This document shows positions 54,428 through 62,052 of a stretch of DNA of 64,000 nucleotides, one piece after another. How positions within the stretch are numbered: the stretch's first letter is position 1; every line of letters starts with the position of its first letter. Made by a program: the position numbers and the translations under genes. Where the stretch lies: assembly GCF_033100135.1 (NCBI RefSeq), contig NZ_CP136920.1, positions 124,001-188,000 on the forward strand. Reading direction: 5' to 3'. Below the pieces are notes generated by a model. It worked only from the letters and a program-made list of their open reading frames with translations. It ran no database searches and had not been told where the DNA came from. Origin of the DNA: Rubellicoccus peritrichatus. GTDB lineage: Bacteria; Verrucomicrobiota; Verrucomicrobiia; Opitutales; Cerasicoccaceae.

Positions 54428-54467
54428 TTGACAGTTTTGGAAGATTTTGGAAGATTTCAGTCATAAT
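54428..54467 (+). promoter_or_regulatory. Putative promoter/operator of the microcompartment operon
   Basis: A perfect -35-like TTGACA at 54428-54433 is followed by two exact 10-base direct repeats, TTTTGGAAGA at 54435-54444 and 54445-54454, and a CATAAT at 54462-54467. The spacing between TTGACA and CATAAT is too long for one promoter; a weak -10 (AAGATT, 54451-54456) at 17 bases fits better. The repeats would cover the promoter, as in sites of DeoR-type repressors that control some such loci. Confidence 0.35.
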
Positions 54468-54488
54468 CTTTCTTTAATCCAAAATTTT

Positions 54489-55169
54489 ATGTCCACAGCC
54501 CCCATTTCCGACTCCTCTCGCGCAGCAGTCGAACAGCTTGTCAGAGAGAGCGTTTACCGCCACCTCGGCATATCCGGTGCTAAGCAGGGCAGTGCTCCAA
54601 ATCCATTGGTAGTCAACAGCTCAGCCAGACATTGTCACCTGACTCAGGATGCCGTTGAAGCCCTTTTCGGCAAAGGCCACCAGCTGACTCCGATGAAGTG
54701 GCTCTACCAGGATGGTCAATATGCCGCCGAAGAGACTGTAACTCTGGTTGGCCCGAGAAGCCGTGTCATTTCGAATCTGCGCATCCTCGGCCCATGCCGA
54801 GACTTTAACCAAGTTGAACTCTCCTATACCGATGCGATCTCGCTCGGATACAAAGTGCCCGTTCGCCAAAGTGGAAATATTGCGGGTAGCCCCGGTTGCA
54901 TGCTGATGGGCCCCAATGGCTTTTTCGAAATGGACGAAGGCGTCATCCGTGCCGCACCACACGTCCACATGGCTCCTGAAGATGCTGAATTCTATGGAGT
55001 TGAAAACAAAGGTTTCATGAAACTCCGCGTCGGCGGGGACTTGGGGATGACCTTTGATCGAATTTTTGTCCGTGTATCGCCTGACTTTAAATTGGAAATT
55101 CACATCGACACCGATGAGGCCAACGCCTGTGGCCTTGGGCCCGATTCCATAGTCGAATTAGTCAAATAG
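54489..55169 (+). CDS. pduL: Phosphate propanoyltransferase PduL, microcompartment type
   Basis: A 226-residue enzyme that converts acyl-CoA and phosphate into acyl phosphate inside a bacterial microcompartment. The ATG at 54489 gives an N-terminal amphipathic helix (S-S-R-A-A-V-E-Q-L-V-R-E-S-V-Y) typical of an encapsulation peptide. The body shows the zinc-binding A-R-H-C-H-L-T near 43-49 and H-V-H-M-A-P-E-D near 163-170, both features of PduL. A frame from a TTG at 54447 is not preferred. First gene of the operon; two shell genes follow. Confidence 0.93.
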   Translation: MSTAPISDSSRAAVEQLVRESVYRHLGISGAKQGSAPNPLVVNSSARHCHLTQDAVEALFGKGHQLTPMKWLYQDGQYAAEETVTLVGPRSRVISNLRILGPCRDFNQVELSYTDAISLGYKVPVRQSGNIAGSPGCMLMGPNGFFEMDEGVIRAAPHVHMAPEDAEFYGVENKGFMKLRVGGDLGMTFDRIFVRVSPDFKLEIHIDTDEANACGLGPDSIVELVK

Positions 55170-55219: not shown

Positions 55220-55489
55220 ATGAGCGAATCCCTAGGAATGGTAGAAACGCGTGGTTACGTCGGCAGTGTTGAAGCCAGCGATGCCATGGTAAAAGCCGCG
55301 AGCGTCAGCCTCGTGAAACAAGTGCAAATTGGTGGCGGATTCATGTCCGTGCTTTGCAAAGGCGATGTTGGCAGCGTAAAAGCCGCAGTCGATGCTGGCG
55401 CAGAAGCTGCCGCAAAAACTGGCGAGTTAATCAGCGCGCACGTTATTGCCCGCCCACACAATGAGCTGTTGAAGCACTTCAACGTCTAA
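55220..55489 (+). CDS. BMC-H hexameric shell protein 1
   Basis: An 89-residue single BMC-domain protein forming hexameric tiles of the microcompartment shell. It has the standard opening L-G-M-V-E-T-R-G-Y, the pore loop Q-I-G-G-G-F-M and the K-A-A-V-D-A-G-A-E-A-A helix. H-V-I-A-R-P-H-N-E-L closes the domain. The pore loop differs from the canonical K-I-G-S-G. It follows pduL at 50 bases and precedes a second BMC-H by 36. Confidence 0.97.
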   Translation: MSESLGMVETRGYVGSVEASDAMVKAASVSLVKQVQIGGGFMSVLCKGDVGSVKAAVDAGAEAAAKTGELISAHVIARPHNELLKHFNV

Positions 55490-55525: not shown

Positions 55526-55804
55526 ATGGCAAAGCCAGCACTCGGAATGTTAGAAACAAAAGGCTTCAATGCACTCCTCGAAGGATGCGACGCAGCCCTC
55601 AAATCAGCAGACGTCACCATGACCGGTTGGGACAAAATCGGCAGTGGCCTCGTCACAGCCTTCTTCATTGGAGACGTCGCAGCAGTCAAAGCAGCGGTTG
55701 ACGCCGGTGCAGAAGCGGCATCACAGGTCGGCACCGTCCAAGGTGTTCAAGTCATTCCACGTCCTCACGACGACATTGCCAAGCTCGGCAAGTGGATGGG
55801 ATAA
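55526..55804 (+). CDS. BMC-H hexameric shell protein 2
   Basis: A 92-residue BMC-H protein. It has L-G-M-L-E-T-K-G-F-N, the canonical pore loop K-I-G-S-G, and V-K-A-A-V-D-A-G-A-E-A-A-S-Q-V-G. P-R-P-H-D-D-I-A-K-L ends the domain. It has the most standard pore of the three and is probably the main tile. A stem-forming segment lies between it and ackA (about 55809-55885). Confidence 0.97.
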   Translation: MAKPALGMLETKGFNALLEGCDAALKSADVTMTGWDKIGSGLVTAFFIGDVAAVKAAVDAGAEAASQVGTVQGVQVIPRPHDDIAKLGKWMG

Positions 55805-55918: not shown

Positions 55919-57151
55919 ATGAAAGTCCTCGTTGCTAACCTCGGCTCCACGTCGTTCAAGTATCGCCTCTTTGACATCACAGAAGCAGGCGAAACGCTTT
56001 TGGCCAAAGGTGGATACGAGCGGGTCGAGAATTTCGGCGAGGTAATCGAAGACTGTGTCCGCTCCCTCGAGGAAGATGCCCATCTTGCTCCAATGGGAGC
56101 AGATCTGGACGCAGTCGGTTTCAAATGTGTGGTAGGAGGAGAAGTATCAGGTTGCCTTGAGGCAGACCAAACGGTCCTGGACGCTCTTGAGAAATTCCGC
56201 GAAGTCGCTCCCGCCCACAACCCGGCATATGCCAATGGCATTAAGCAGTTTGCCAAGGTCATGCCCAATGTGCCCCGGGTGGCACTTTTTGAAACTGCGT
56301 TTTACCAATGGACACCCGAGCCAACACGCCACTACGCAGTCCCTAAAAACTGGCGCGATGCAGGCATACGGCGTTATGGCTTCCACGGCGCAAGCCACAA
56401 GTTCATTGCCGAACGGTCAGCCCAATTGATCGGCCGCGAAGACATCGTAGAGAAAGTCCAGCATCTGTATCAGCAAGGTAATACAGACATTACGGAAAAA
56501 CCACTGCGCGTCATCTCCTGCCACCTTGGGGGCAGCAGCTCTGTCACAGGAATTCATAACGGAGTTGCGATTGGATCCAGCATGGGATTCTCACCTCAAG
56601 GTGGATTGCCACAGAACAACCGAGTTGGCGACCTGGACACAATGGCCATTCCTTTCATGATGAAAACCCAGGGGCTTTCACTTGAAGAATGCGAACACCA
56701 GTTGACCAAAGAAGGTGGACTGCTCGGACTCTCTGGAGCGGGCAATGACATCCGTGATGTCAAAGACGCTGCCTCAAAGGGAAATCAGGATGCACGCCTG
56801 GCCCTTGAGATTCAAATTCGGGAGATACGCCGCTGGGTTGGCTCCTTCTTTTTTGAAATGGGTGGCGCAGACATCATCGCCTTCACTGGAGGCATTGGTG
56901 AATACAACCCTGATGTCCGTGCCGGTGTTTGCCGAGGCCTTGAAGAGCTTGGTATCGCAGTTGATGGACGACTCAATGGTGCCCTCATGGGAACAGAAGG
57001 TTTTATTTCGGCAAACGGTGCACGAACCCGTATCGCCGTTATCCCGGCAAACGAAGAAGTCGTCATTGCCCGGGAAGTCTTTCGCTTCATGCAGTCACGC
57101 AACGCTGGAAAGTCAGGAGTAAACAGAGAGAAGGCAGAAGTAAATACATGA
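55919..57151 (+). CDS. ackA: Acetate/propionate kinase
   Basis: A 410-residue ASKHA-fold kinase that makes ATP from acyl phosphate, the last step of the pathway. It starts K-V-L-V-A-N-L-G-S-T-S-F-K and has R-R-Y-G-F-H-G-A-S-H-K near 150-160, S-C-H-L-G-G-S-S-S-V-T near 200-210, and G-G-I-G-E-Y-N near 324-330. The last residues N-R-E-K-A-E-V-N-T are encoded by a repeat that also occurs between genes in this operon, so the normal C-terminus probably ends near S-R-N-A-G. Confidence 0.95.
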   Translation: MKVLVANLGSTSFKYRLFDITEAGETLLAKGGYERVENFGEVIEDCVRSLEEDAHLAPMGADLDAVGFKCVVGGEVSGCLEADQTVLDALEKFREVAPAHNPAYANGIKQFAKVMPNVPRVALFETAFYQWTPEPTRHYAVPKNWRDAGIRRYGFHGASHKFIAERSAQLIGREDIVEKVQHLYQQGNTDITEKPLRVISCHLGGSSSVTGIHNGVAIGSSMGFSPQGGLPQNNRVGDLDTMAIPFMMKTQGLSLEECEHQLTKEGGLLGLSGAGNDIRDVKDAASKGNQDARLALEIQIREIRRWVGSFFFEMGGADIIAFTGGIGEYNPDVRAGVCRGLEELGIAVDGRLNGALMGTEGFISANGARTRIAVIPANEEVVIAREVFRFMQSRNAGKSGVNREKAEVNT

Positions 57152-57216: not shown

Positions 57217-57510
57217 ATGGCATCACAAGCAATCGGACTCCTCGAGACCAAAGGTCTCATCGCCCTCGTCCAAGGCACAGACGCAATGCTCAAAGCAGCT
57301 AACGTAGAGCTCGTTGGCCCAATGAAGAGCGTTGGCAGCATGCTCGTAAGCGCAACCATTACCGGCGATGTCGCCGCAGTAAAGGCAGCGATCGACGCAG
57401 GTGCAGAATCAGCAGCTTCCTTCGGTGAAGTCGTCAGCGCGCATGTAATCGCACGCCCACACGACGATGTCTCGAAGGTCCTTCCTAAAGCAACCGCAGC
57501 AAAGAAATAA
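57217..57510 (+). CDS. BMC-H hexameric shell protein 3
   Basis: A 97-residue BMC-H protein with I-G-L-L-E-T-K-G-L-I, the pore loop S-V-G-S-M in place of K-I-G-S-G, and V-K-A-A-I-D-A-G-A-E-S-A-A. H-V-I-A-R-P-H-D-D-V closes it, followed by a short Lys/Ala tail. The Met at the pore should make it larger and more hydrophobic at that position than in its two paralogues. It sits between ackA and the first BMC-P gene. Confidence 0.97.
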   Translation: MASQAIGLLETKGLIALVQGTDAMLKAANVELVGPMKSVGSMLVSATITGDVAAVKAAIDAGAESAASFGEVVSAHVIARPHDDVSKVLPKATAAKK

Positions 57511-57594: not shown

Positions 57595-57903
57595 ATGTTC
57601 CTAGCAAAAGTCATCGGACAGGTCGTCTCGACCAAAAAGGATGAAGCCATGAAAGGCTATCGCCTTCTGGTTTTGCGACCTCAACTAGTGGATGCGACAG
57701 ACCCTGGCAAATTCCGTGACGGAGCAAACACAGTTATTGCTATCGACACAATGGGAGCTGGAACAAACGAAATGGTGCTCTTTTGTCAGGGGAGTTCAGC
57801 CAGACAAGCATCGGGATTAAAAACGGTCCCGGTCGACTGTGCCGTCACTGGCATCGTCGATAGCGTCGATGTCCTGGGATCCCAAGTTTATAAAACGAGC
57901 TGA
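57595..57903 (+). CDS. BMC-P (EutN/CcmL-type) pentameric vertex protein 1
   Basis: A 102-residue pentamer-forming protein that closes shell vertices. It has F-L-A-K-V-I-G-Q-V-V-S-T-K-K, the central A-I-D-T-M-G-A-G-T-N-E and the closing V-T-G-I-V-D-S-V-D-V. Length fits the EutN/CcmL family (about 85-105). First of three BMC-P genes in the operon; each vertex class may have a different position or stoichiometry, which is not shown by sequence. Confidence 0.95.
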   Translation: MFLAKVIGQVVSTKKDEAMKGYRLLVLRPQLVDATDPGKFRDGANTVIAIDTMGAGTNEMVLFCQGSSARQASGLKTVPVDCAVTGIVDSVDVLGSQVYKTS

Positions 57904-57935: not shown

Positions 57936-59402
57936 ATGAGTTTGAATATCGACGAAGCGATTCTAAAGAATGTGGTAGAAGATGTGCTCCGCAAACTAGG
58001 TGACAAAGTAAGCCCCGAAACGACATCTGCGCCCAAGCCTGCAGCAGCGATTCCGGCCAGAAAATCTTCACCAGACTATGGTGTTTTTGATTGCGCCAAT
58101 GAAGCCGCGGCGGCTTCCGTTGAAGGACAGAAAGCCTTGCGCAAACTTGGCTTTGAAGGACGCAAAAAGGTCATTGATATTGTTAAAACGACATGCGCCG
58201 ACAAGGCAGAGGAATGGGGCCGCCTTGAGCTGAACGAAACAAAGATTGGGCGTCTGGACCATAAGATTGCCAAGCTGGTCGGCATTCCAAACCTGCCAGG
58301 CGTAGAATGGTTGACTCCGCGAGGCATGAGCGGTGATCACGGAATCACACTGGAAGAAAACACACCTTTCGGTGTTGTCGCTGCGATCACTCCAGTAACA
58401 CATTCCATCCCAACTGCAGCCTGTAATATCATCAGCATGGTTGCAGCGGGTAATGGCGTTGTCTTCAACGCACACCCAGGTGGTGCCGCATGTGCAGCTG
58501 AAGCCGTACGCACCTTCAATAAGCTGATAGAATCTGAGTTGGGCATTCACAATCTGATCACGATTGTGGAACATCCAACAATTGATTCCTTCAATGCTCT
58601 CTGCGCGAGCGAACATGTTAATCTGCTCTGCGTCACCGGAGGACCGGGAGTAGTTAATGCCGCCATGAAAAGTGGCAAGCGTGCCATTTGTGCCGGGCCG
58701 GGAAATCCACCCGTGGTAGTGGATACAACTGCAGACCTCGATAAGGCCGCTCGTGATATTATTTTCGGAGGTGCCTTTGACAACAACCTGCTTTGCATTG
58801 GTGAGAAGCAAGTATTTGTTCTTGATGCAGTCTATGACCAGTTTCTGCAGGCTTTCAAACGTGCAGGAGCCGCACAACTGAATTCCACACAACTGGATAC
58901 TTTGACCAAGCAAGTTTTCACCTTCAAAGAAGATGGTGGCGGATGCTCACACCCAGTGCTGGAGCGTGAACTCGTCGGAGCTGATGCGACAACATTGGCG
59001 GATCGAGCCGGAACAAAAGTCCCTGCAGGCACTGAAATGCTTTTTGCTGAAACAGATGCCAGCCACCTTTTCGTCCAGGAAGAGCAAATGATGCCAATGA
59101 TCCCAGTCGTTCGTGTCAGCAATATGGACGAGGCAATTGAACAGGCAGCGATTTCAGAGCACGGCTACAAGCACTCCTCAATGATCCACTCGCTCAATGT
59201 TGTGAATATGGGAGCAATGGCCCGGGCACTTGATTCAACGCTCTTCGTTAAGAATGGTGCCTGCGTGGCGGGACTTGGAGTCGGCGGCGAAGGTTATTCC
59301 AGCTTTTCCATCGCAACGACAACAGGCGAAGGCATCACCACGCCCGACACCTTCACCCGACGTCGCCGCTGCGTCCTCGTCGATAACCTTCAGATGTATT
59401 AA
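57936..59402 (+). CDS. pduP: CoA-acylating aldehyde dehydrogenase (PduP type)
   Basis: A 488-residue enzyme oxidising propionaldehyde or lactaldehyde-derived aldehyde to acyl-CoA with NAD. Residues 3-23 (N-I-D-E-A-I-L-K-N-V-V-E-D-V-L) form the amphipathic encapsulation helix, then a Pro/Ala linker. The aldehyde dehydrogenase domain carries N-N-L-L-C-I-G-E-K with catalytic Cys287, T-P-V-T-H-S-I-P-T-A and C-V-T-G-G-P-G-V-V. Its start is 32 bases after the BMC-P1 stop. Confidence 0.96.
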   Translation: MSLNIDEAILKNVVEDVLRKLGDKVSPETTSAPKPAAAIPARKSSPDYGVFDCANEAAAASVEGQKALRKLGFEGRKKVIDIVKTTCADKAEEWGRLELNETKIGRLDHKIAKLVGIPNLPGVEWLTPRGMSGDHGITLEENTPFGVVAAITPVTHSIPTAACNIISMVAAGNGVVFNAHPGGAACAAEAVRTFNKLIESELGIHNLITIVEHPTIDSFNALCASEHVNLLCVTGGPGVVNAAMKSGKRAICAGPGNPPVVVDTTADLDKAARDIIFGGAFDNNLLCIGEKQVFVLDAVYDQFLQAFKRAGAAQLNSTQLDTLTKQVFTFKEDGGGCSHPVLERELVGADATTLADRAGTKVPAGTEMLFAETDASHLFVQEEQMMPMIPVVRVSNMDEAIEQAAISEHGYKHSSMIHSLNVVNMGAMARALDSTLFVKNGACVAGLGVGGEGYSSFSIATTTGEGITTPDTFTRRRRCVLVDNLQMY

Positions 59403-59522: not shown

Positions 59523-59792
59523 ATGATCTCCGCCCGCATAGATGGTAACGCAGTCGCGACGATAGCTCATCCGAGCTTGAAAGGCTTGCGCCTGCTTATC
59601 TGTCAGCCAGTTGATGAATCAGGTAATGACTCGGGAGAACCCGTAATTGCCTTTGACGAAATGGGAGCCGGACTGCACTCGAAAGTCTTTTACACGACCG
59701 ATGGCAGTGCCGCACGCGAACACGCAGGCGACGCCCATAGCCCACTGCGCAACATGATTGCCGGCATTATTGATGAGGAGGAATCCAAATGA
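59523..59792 (+). CDS. BMC-P pentameric vertex protein 2
   Basis: An 89-residue EutN/CcmL-family protein. I-S-A-R-I-D-G-N-A-V-A-T, P-V-I-A-F-D-E-M-G-A-G and M-I-A-G-I-I-D-E-E-E are present; the N-terminal strand diverges from BMC-P1. Its stop overlaps the start of BMC-P3 by 4 bases (ATGA), so the pair is translationally coupled. Confidence 0.92.
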   Translation: MISARIDGNAVATIAHPSLKGLRLLICQPVDESGNDSGEPVIAFDEMGAGLHSKVFYTTDGSAAREHAGDAHSPLRNMIAGIIDEEESK

Positions 59793-60100
59793 GGTTTGGG
59801 CGCGTTATAGGTAGAACCGTTTTCAGTCGCCAGGATCCTGCCTACAATGGAGGTCGCTTTCTTGTCGTCAGCCCAATGACACGAAAACAACTGCTTGCCG
59901 GACTCGAAGATGATTCCCAAATGGTTTCCGAAATCCCAAGTGTTGTCGTCTACGACAATCTTGGTGCGGGAACCGGAGATGTCATCGGGTTTGTTGAAGG
60001 TGCAGAAGCAACAGCACCTTTTGAAAGCCCTATCCCGATTGATGCTTTCAGCGCAGCTATTTTTGACCAGATCACCTACCAACCACCAGTTACGAGTTAA
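59789..60100 (+). CDS. BMC-P pentameric vertex protein 3
   Basis: A 103-residue EutN/CcmL-family protein with R-F-G-R-V-I-G-R-T-V-F-S, V-V-V-Y-D-N-L-G-A-G-T-G-D-V and a longer loop around 33-48 than its paralogues. Its ATG overlaps the BMC-P2 stop by 4 bases. The aldolase gene starts 8 bases after it. Confidence 0.93.
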   Translation: MRFGRVIGRTVFSRQDPAYNGGRFLVVSPMTRKQLLAGLEDDSQMVSEIPSVVVYDNLGAGTGDVIGFVEGAEATAPFESPIPIDAFSAAIFDQITYQPPVTS

Positions 60101-60108
60101 TATTTTAA

Positions 60109-61194
60109 ATGAAAAAAGTTTACACAGCAAAAGACATACAAGCACTTGTAGCAAGTGGTCAACCTCTCAGCTCTATTCCTGATAGCGCTGTCCTGACTCC
60201 TTCGGCAAAGGATGCAATCCGGGATCTGAAAAGCAAACCTGCTCAGGCAAAATCGTCAAACAGCTCAAGAGTGGAACCAATCGTTCCGGACTATGAGTTC
60301 AAGTGGAAGAAAGGTGCCGACCCCAAAACACCTGAAGCCATTGAGGCCTTTTTTAATTCTCCAGAACTACGTGTATTGAAAGAACGCATATGCGATATGG
60401 GACGGCGCATCTGGGAAAAGAATTACTGTGACGGCAACGGTGGAAACATCACGATTCGTGTCGGCGATAATCTCGTCCTTTGCACCCCCACTCTGATTTC
60501 CAAAGGCTTCATCGCAGTGGATGATATCTGCATGGTGGATCTTGATGGCAATCAGGTCGCCGGCAGTCGCAAGCGTACCAGTGAAGTCAACACACACTTG
60601 GCTATTATGAAGGCAACACCAGATGCGAAGTCATGCGTGCATGCTCACCCCATTCACGCAACAGCCTTTGCCATTGCTGGAGTAAAACCACCAACCTGCT
60701 TAATTCCAGAACCAGAAGTCTTCCTCGGTGAAATTGCCCTGGCACATTACGAAACACCTGGCACACCGGAAAACGCCAAGGCAGTGGGAGCACTGGCCCC
60801 AGACCATCAGAGCATCATCATGCAAAACCACGGCGTCATCTGCTGGGGTAAGGACGTTGAAGATGCATACTGGAAGATGGAAAACACTGAAGCTTATTGT
60901 AATACAGTCTATATCGCATCCCAGCTAGGGCACGGTCTCAATACTTACGGAGGCAACAAACTGCAGGAACTGATTGCGATCCGCCGGAGCCTTGGAATGC
61001 CGGACAAACGCGAAGGTCTCAAGGAGTGCGAACTTTGCGACAATTCTGAATTCAGTCCAGGCGTCGTCTGCGTCAGCTCTTCAGGCTGCGACTGCGAAGA
61101 CAATAATAATAGCTCTCCTAGTGTGGACACGAGCGATGCCGAAGCCATCGTTCAAAAGGTTACTGACCTTATCATGCGACAGTTGAGCGCTTAG
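60109..61194 (+). CDS. Microcompartment class II aldolase with Cys-rich extension
   Basis: A 361-residue zinc aldolase of the fuculose/rhamnulose-1-phosphate aldolase family, splitting the sugar phosphate into DHAP and lactaldehyde. The core (about 75-290) has Glu159 in R-T-S-E-V, zinc ligands H178 and H180 in V-H-A-H-P-I-H, and H241 in N-H-G-V. An N-terminal part (1-42, T-A-K-D-I-Q-A-L-V and L-T-P-S-A-K-D-A-I-R) looks like a targeting extension. The C-terminal part is Cys-rich (307, 310, 321, 327, 329), then ends in an amphipathic helix D-A-E-A-I-V-Q-K-V-T-D-L-I-M. Last gene of the operon. Confidence 0.93.
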   Translation: MKKVYTAKDIQALVASGQPLSSIPDSAVLTPSAKDAIRDLKSKPAQAKSSNSSRVEPIVPDYEFKWKKGADPKTPEAIEAFFNSPELRVLKERICDMGRRIWEKNYCDGNGGNITIRVGDNLVLCTPTLISKGFIAVDDICMVDLDGNQVAGSRKRTSEVNTHLAIMKATPDAKSCVHAHPIHATAFAIAGVKPPTCLIPEPEVFLGEIALAHYETPGTPENAKAVGALAPDHQSIIMQNHGVICWGKDVEDAYWKMENTEAYCNTVYIASQLGHGLNTYGGNKLQELIAIRRSLGMPDKREGLKECELCDNSEFSPGVVCVSSSGCDCEDNNNSSPSVDTSDAEAIVQKVTDLIMRQLSA

Positions 61195-61263
61195 AGCTCA
61201 TTGACAAACCTACTGGCGACTCAGAGTTGCCATAAACAGGAAGCTTCCCCACAGTTTGTGATT

Positions 61264-62052
61264 GTGAAGATATCACTTGCACAAATGGCGGTAAAAACGC
61301 TTGAGGTTGAGGCAAATCTTGAGAAAGGGGCTCGGCTCATTGAAGAGGCAGCTAAAGAAGGTTCCGATCTGGTTGTCATGCCTGAGCTCTGGACCACTGG
61401 GTTCAACATGCCTGGCAATGTAAAAATTGCCCAAGAACATGAGCAAGCACACCTCCAGATTGCTCAATTGGCAAAAAAACACAACATATGGATCACTGGT
61501 TCTGTCCTCGCACTCAACACTGAGGAAAAACCATCCAATGCCGCCCTGCTCTTCTCACCAGATGGAGAAATCGTTTCATCGTATCGCAAAATGCATCTTT
61601 TCAGTCTCGTTAACGAAGGCGATTACCTTTCACCTGGTAACGAGATCATACAGTTTGATGCCCCTTGGGGAAAAACCGGCTTCACCATCTGCTATGATTT
61701 GCGCTTTCCAGAACTCTTTCGCAATCTAGCCGTCAACGGCTCAGAACTTATCATATGTCCGGCTGGTTTTCCCAATCCACGTAAAGAACATTGGCGCACA
61801 CTCCTCCGAGCTCGCGCCATTGAAAATCAATGCTTCATCGCAGCAACCAACAGGGCCGGGAGCGAACATCTCGGAAAAGGCCAAACCATGGAGTTTTTTG
61901 GAGCATCATCCATTATTGACCCTTGGGGCAAAACGCTTGCCGAAGCCGACGACTCCGAATGCCTAATCTCGAGAGAATTGGATTTAACCGAGGCCAGCAA
62001 GATTCGAAACCAAATGAAAGTCTTCGAAGACAGACGGCCTGAACTCTACTAA
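61264..62052 (+). CDS. Carbon-nitrogen hydrolase (nitrilase superfamily, omega-amidase-like)
   Basis: A 262-residue cytosolic amidase with the Glu-Lys-Cys triad: Glu41 in M-P-E-L-W, Lys109 in Y-R-K-M-H-L-F and Cys143 in I-C-Y-D-L-R-F-P-E-L-F. Family members hydrolyse alpha-ketoglutaramate or similar amides. GTG at 61264 (M-K-I-S-L-A-Q-M) is preferred; an upstream TTG at 61201 adds an untypical N-terminus. It follows the microcompartment operon by 69 bases and has no obvious link to it. Confidence 0.87.
   Translation: MKISLAQMAVKTLEVEANLEKGARLIEEAAKEGSDLVVMPELWTTGFNMPGNVKIAQEHEQAHLQIAQLAKKHNIWITGSVLALNTEEKPSNAALLFSPDGEIVSSYRKMHLFSLVNEGDYLSPGNEIIQFDAPWGKTGFTICYDLRFPELFRNLAVNGSELIICPAGFPNPRKEHWRTLLRARAIENQCFIAATNRAGSEHLGKGQTMEFFGASSIIDPWGKTLAEADDSECLISRELDLTEASKIRNQMKVFEDRRPELY

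Follow-up and report, generated by a model that had tools for sequence, protein, structure and literature searches.

A microcompartment aldolase of Rubellicoccus peritrichatus carries a module homologous to the shell-binding helices of EutQ and may link shell and core

In a 64,000-nucleotide stretch of the Rubellicoccus peritrichatus genome (henceforth referred to as the window), the signature aldolase of a microcompartment (BMC) operon carries in front of its catalytic core a folded module of ~42 residues that, by profile comparison, is homologous to the shell-binding helices H1/H2 of EutQ. We think it probable, though well short of certain, that this aldolase combines catalysis with the linking of shell to core and does the job that EutQ does elsewhere.

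The aldolase gene comes last, on the 3' side, in a run of BMC genes, which are listed here with the families that identify them:

54447..55169, + strand, PduL-type phosphotransacylase (PF06130)
55220..55489, + strand, BMC-H shell protein (PF00936)
55526..55804, + strand, BMC-H shell protein (PF00936)
55919..57151, + strand, acetate kinase (PF00871)
57217..57510, + strand, BMC-H shell protein (PF00936)
57595..57903, + strand, BMC-P shell protein (PF03319)
57936..59402, + strand, CoA-acylating aldehyde dehydrogenase (PF00171, PRK15398)
59523..59792, + strand, BMC-P shell protein (PF03319)
59789..60100, + strand, BMC-P shell protein (PF03319)
60109..61194, + strand, class II aldolase of PVM-type BMC, 361 amino acids (PF00596, E 1e-44)

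A PF00596 enzyme beside BMC-H, BMC-P, aldehyde dehydrogenase (AldDH), PduL and acetate kinase (AckA) is the set of genes found for PVM-type microcompartments, which have a class II aldolase as signature enzyme and to which two surveys ascribe cleavage of L-fuculose/L-rhamnulose phosphate (PMC4207490; PMC8217296). Judged by its domain and its neighbours, the ORF at 60109-61194 is the signature sugar-phosphate aldolase of such a (fucose/rhamnose) microcompartment. It shares Pfam domain, operon content and phylum with the PVM aldolase of Axen 2014 (PMC4207490) and Sutter 2021 (PMC8217296), the available text of which describes neither the module homology nor the cysteine motif reported below. Directly 3' of the aldolase gene, and possibly just outside the operon, a nitrilase-like ORF was recognised by eye at window positions 61201-62052.

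The aldolase is made up of the following parts:

60109..60234, + strand, N-terminal module, residues 1-42, with helices 7-15 and 31-42 and an LTPSAKD motif (homologous to the EutQ and EutT N-termini and the TIGR02536 C-terminus)
60235..60288, + strand, variable linker from module to core, residues 43-60 (pLDDT 64-74, mean conservation 0.37)
60289..61008, + strand, aldolase core, residues 61-300 (PF00596, fold comparison)
61021..61041, + strand, K-E-C-E-L-C-D motif, residues 305-311, with C307 and C310 (conservation)
61069..61095, + strand, linker cysteines C321, C327 and C329 (one or more in 73/76 homologues, position clade-dependent)
61072..61131, + strand, disordered linker, residues 322-341 (pLDDT < 50 at 323-338)
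61132..61188, + strand, C-terminal amphipathic helix, encapsulation-peptide-like, residues 342-360 (AF2 helix)

PF00596 is the sole Pfam domain of the protein (residues 92-266), and Pfam holds no family for either end. The preliminary description of this DNA had placed a class II aldolase core in an ORF with the coordinates given above, and both points held. The VIA fold comparison, which covered residues 80-311, a range outside which the N-terminal module lies, gave the FucA fold (Z about 25), and H178, H180, H241 and E159 align with the metal and acid/base positions of FucA. The closest homologues come from Cerasicoccus and relatives. A separate search for nearest relatives covered the window's order, and viral contigs contained no relative. 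For family-wide comparison the 80 best-scoring homologues from genome contigs were kept, a set without planctomycete PVM aldolases, and the 76 non-redundant PVM-type sequences were used for cysteine counts.

The N-terminal extension, which includes the stretch T-A-K-D-I-Q-A-L-V (residues 6-14), is modelled by AF2 as a compact two-helix module (pLDDT about 95 in the full model and 85 when modelled alone). In a search of 21,700 ORFs with an HMM of this module, E. coli EutT and EutQ stood out besides the aldolases, and with Eut proteins added to the search the C-terminus of Listeria TIGR02536 matched as well (E 5e-10). Comparison by hhalign with the joint EutQ/EutT/TIGR02536 modules gave a match over the whole module (98.4%, E 6.7e-15, 43 columns), with a score of 63 as opposed to 17 for the best of 100 column-shuffled controls; against the single families the values were 96.2% (EutQ), 96% (EutT) and 97% (TIGR02536). 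The NCBIfam family EutQ also matches aldolase residues 1-45 (E 0.006). The EutQ stretch aligned to the module is H1/H2, which in the Salmonella protein (residues 9-41) binds the shell, with H3/H4 binding the encapsulation peptides (EPs) of cargo (PMC12487888). The preliminary description had taken both ends of the aldolase for targeting peptides: both do appear suited to assembly, but a second encapsulation peptide at the N-terminus was rejected, since the extension is a folded, Eut-homologous module with a motif unlike an EP. Sequence matches of the module profile in the PDB were set aside as repeat-rich or due to chance. The R. peritrichatus genome contains one copy of the module, and a tblastn search of plasmids returned no match to it.

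The same module occurs in differing arrangements in the Eut proteins. Salmonella EutQ, like the aldolase, partners an N-terminal H1/H2 module with EP-like helices (PMC12487888), but EutQ is a cupin, whereas PF06249 was absent from the aldolase and PF00596 alone was found; in EutQ the EP-binding helices follow directly upon the module, whereas the EP helix of the aldolase lies at the opposite end. The TIGR02536 Eut proteins of Gram-positive bacteria (L191:5392-5964, L192:5386-6111) are mirror images of the aldolase, with an EP-like N-terminus and a C-terminal module on either side of a middle part that is no aldolase and is unrelated to it. The corrinoid adenosyltransferase EutT has the module at its N-terminus, as the aldolase does, and its enterobacterial forms also contain C-E-L-C. 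In EutT, however, C-E-L-C sits in CC-x2-C beside the module, and in the aldolase it lies towards the opposite terminus. The EutT metal motif HX11CCX2C, with its His and adjacent CC by the module, was not found in the aldolase; the likeness in C-E-L-C is probably due to chance, as Gram-positive EutTs are without C-E-L-C.

The distribution of the module follows that of the shell. In a sweep of 387 Verrucomicrobiota genomes drawn evenly from the phylum, 43 had a clear match, one copy each and always on a PVM aldolase; weaker matches began at E 6.6e-4 and resembled noise. BMC-P genes were present in 42 of these 43 genomes, as opposed to 0 of 33 genomes with a short (~271-residue) Akkermansia-type orthologue that is without module, cysteine tail and EP. 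The Fisher test value of 9e-21 ignores kinship, is descriptive only and is not independent evidence, because all the short non-BMC aldolases fall into a single nested clade, which corresponds to about one loss: in a tree of aldolase cores, where support was 92/91 and 95/84 and one long branch stood nearby, they nest within the BMC forms, and thus probably represent one derived loss rather than many. The 271-residue orthologues (L112-L114, L131 and relatives) end in a Tyr-rich tail, YNTxxxAGYKLGK, and C197 (window 60697-60699), kept in the BMC forms, is mostly Gly in the short ones. A second comparison is offered by an orphan full-length PVM aldolase (L186/L133) from a single-contig, 93% complete genome (G186) in which neither PF00936 nor PF03319 was found. 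Of the positions that its relatives conserve, this protein had changed 19 of 52 in the terminal parts, as opposed to 21 of 203 in the core (p=2e-5); in its shell-bearing sister the corresponding counts were 4/52 and 13/203 (p=0.76). Erosion of this kind would be expected once assembly parts are no longer under selection. Of the structural or redox role in core assembly put forward in the preliminary description, the structural part gains indirect support from the homology, the co-occurrence with the shell and the erosion after shell loss, and the redox part does not.

By analogy with EutQ, we infer that the aldolase docks the shell through its N-terminal module. The C-terminal encapsulation peptide would join the enzyme core, so that a multimeric aldolase could gather other EP-bearing enzymes (AldDH, PduL) by one end and dock at the shell by the other, replacing EutQ, and the E-C-x-L-C-D turn with one linker cysteine would clasp the tail onto the core by a structural metal or a thiol pair. 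EutQ docks at the EutM/EutL (BMC-H/BMC-T) interface, whereas no BMC-T gene was found in the aldolase operon, and the shell partner of the aldolase must therefore differ from that of EutQ.

The preliminary description had drawn attention to five cysteines with the spacing C-x2-C-x10-C-x5-C-x-C. Their positions (307, 310, 321, 327 and 329) are exact and, far from being absent from all close homologues, an outcome that would have spoken against that description, cysteines are present in nearly all; the spacing, however, is not kept. E306, C307, L309, C310 and D311 are invariant in an alignment of 52 sequences, which goes beyond chance. Among the 76 homologues E306, L309 and D311 are nearly invariant, C310 is present in 76/76, C307 in 72/76 (four have A or V) and one or more linker cysteines in 73/76, although conservation over linker positions 322-341 averages 21%; C310 alone is universal. 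A cysteine follows ten residues after C310 (C-x2-C-x10-C) in 44 sequences, another clade (25 sequences) has C-x-C about fifteen residues past C310, and the window aldolase and a few others carry both. This variation rules out the exact five-cysteine pattern as a conserved site: what is conserved, as far as the alignments go, is E-C-x-L-C-D together with a single cysteine of the flexible linker. This turn just behind the core and the linker cysteine most likely serve as a clasp that holds the tail to the core. A site for structural zinc (or a similar metal) at this junction, possibly between subunits, is compatible with the linker reading and is a serious candidate to which we give somewhat less than an even chance. 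The CxxC stands with neighbouring acidic residues right behind the folded core, a third cysteine is present in ~95% of sequences, and the CxxC survives the loss of both linker and EP in two genomes (G348/G372). On the other side, the fourth ligand is not fixed and C307 is replaceable. A four-ligand zinc or Fe-S site would call for four conserved ligands with conserved spacing; the CxxC and one cysteine of variable position are conserved, and four cysteines occur in only part of the family. The AF2 model, with C307 and C310 on the border of the folded core and C321-C329 in or beside the low-confidence linker, does not establish a metal fold within a single chain. Of the two chemistries that the clasp might use, we favour metal over a thiol pair, if not strongly.

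At the other end of the disordered linker, the predicted helix 342-360 (pLDDT about 80-91 over most of its length) has a hydrophobic moment of 0.49 (shuffle p 0.03). It has the form of encapsulation peptides, which are amphipathic terminal helices of 15-20 residues behind a flexible linker, and so looks like an ordinary one, as had been proposed. We therefore considered whether both ends could be plain targeting tags, the module serving only for delivery to the lumen, with no link between shell and core, and the C-terminal helix redundantly doing the same. The module could be such a general lumen tag because EutT, an ordinary cargo enzyme, bears it and is not known as a linker. Redundancy would also permit what is seen in the two genomes G348 and G372, which have full shell gene sets and whose aldolases (L121, L122) have lost the C-terminal helix through an earlier stop and retain strong modules and the CxxC; the helix is thus dispensable where the module is present. 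Against plain tags stand the folded state and un-EP-like motif of the module and the recurrence of module-plus-EP layouts in EutQ and the TIGR02536 proteins. In addition, EutQ H1/H2 bound no cargo EP by NMR, and their deletion parted shell from cargo (PMC12487888). Overall, we regard two plain tags as unlikely, if by no means negligible, and prefer the linker reading.

A redox role for the enzyme, through an Fe-S cluster or a redox-active disulfide, would likewise draw on the CxxC and further cysteine of most homologues and on the frequency of Cys in the linker (5.3%, compared with 2.9% in the whole protein), and Fe-S shell proteins are known in other BMCs (PMC6325248). It is nevertheless improbable: C307 can be replaced, three homologues are without a linker cysteine, linker length and cysteine position vary in a segment of low pLDDT, and a PduS/PduT-like partner was not seen in the operon. 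That the added parts are functionless leftovers of descent, to which the freely varying linkers might point, is very hard to reconcile with the strong conservation of module and CxxC and with the faster change of both ends in the lineage without a shell, which its shell-bearing sister does not share.

The way in which a metabolosome shell holds on to its cargo has been worked out for only a few systems (EutQ; PduB and PduM). PduM is the protein that connects shell and core in Pdu compartments (PMC9132943) and has been described as having no homologues outside Pdu (PMC12108088). Its N-terminus is EP-like, and its last ~40 residues (L202-L205) resemble the Eut module profile weakly (hhalign 91%, E 1e-6; score 36, as opposed to at most 15 for shuffled controls), which suggests that PduM may belong to the same group; no similarity was detectable by hhalign to the aldolase module alone. 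The comparison used only the database sequences of the annotated PduM genes. We tentatively propose, as an idea with perhaps one chance in three, that one module serves as the shell-docking half on EutQ and TIGR02536 (Eut), in diverged form on PduM (Pdu) and on the PVM aldolase, where the cysteine clasp would control or stabilise assembly. If the linker reading of the aldolase is right, PVM compartments, which are common among Verrucomicrobiota that degrade algal sugars, would need no dedicated linker, their signature enzyme bearing the shell-docking piece itself; the aldolase would offer a two-ended tag that could be used directly to load designed compartments, and the module a sequence marker for finding linkers in other BMC types. 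The arrangement is a feature of PVM compartments and not of all BMC aldolases, because in L152, a BMC aldolase from a clostridial bacterium, an EP-like helix is present and both module and CxxC are missing. The record that contains this aldolase (NZ_CP154629.1) is a 2.6-Mb Acetoanaerobium 'plasmid' that is chromosome-like and carries at least two BMC gene groups.
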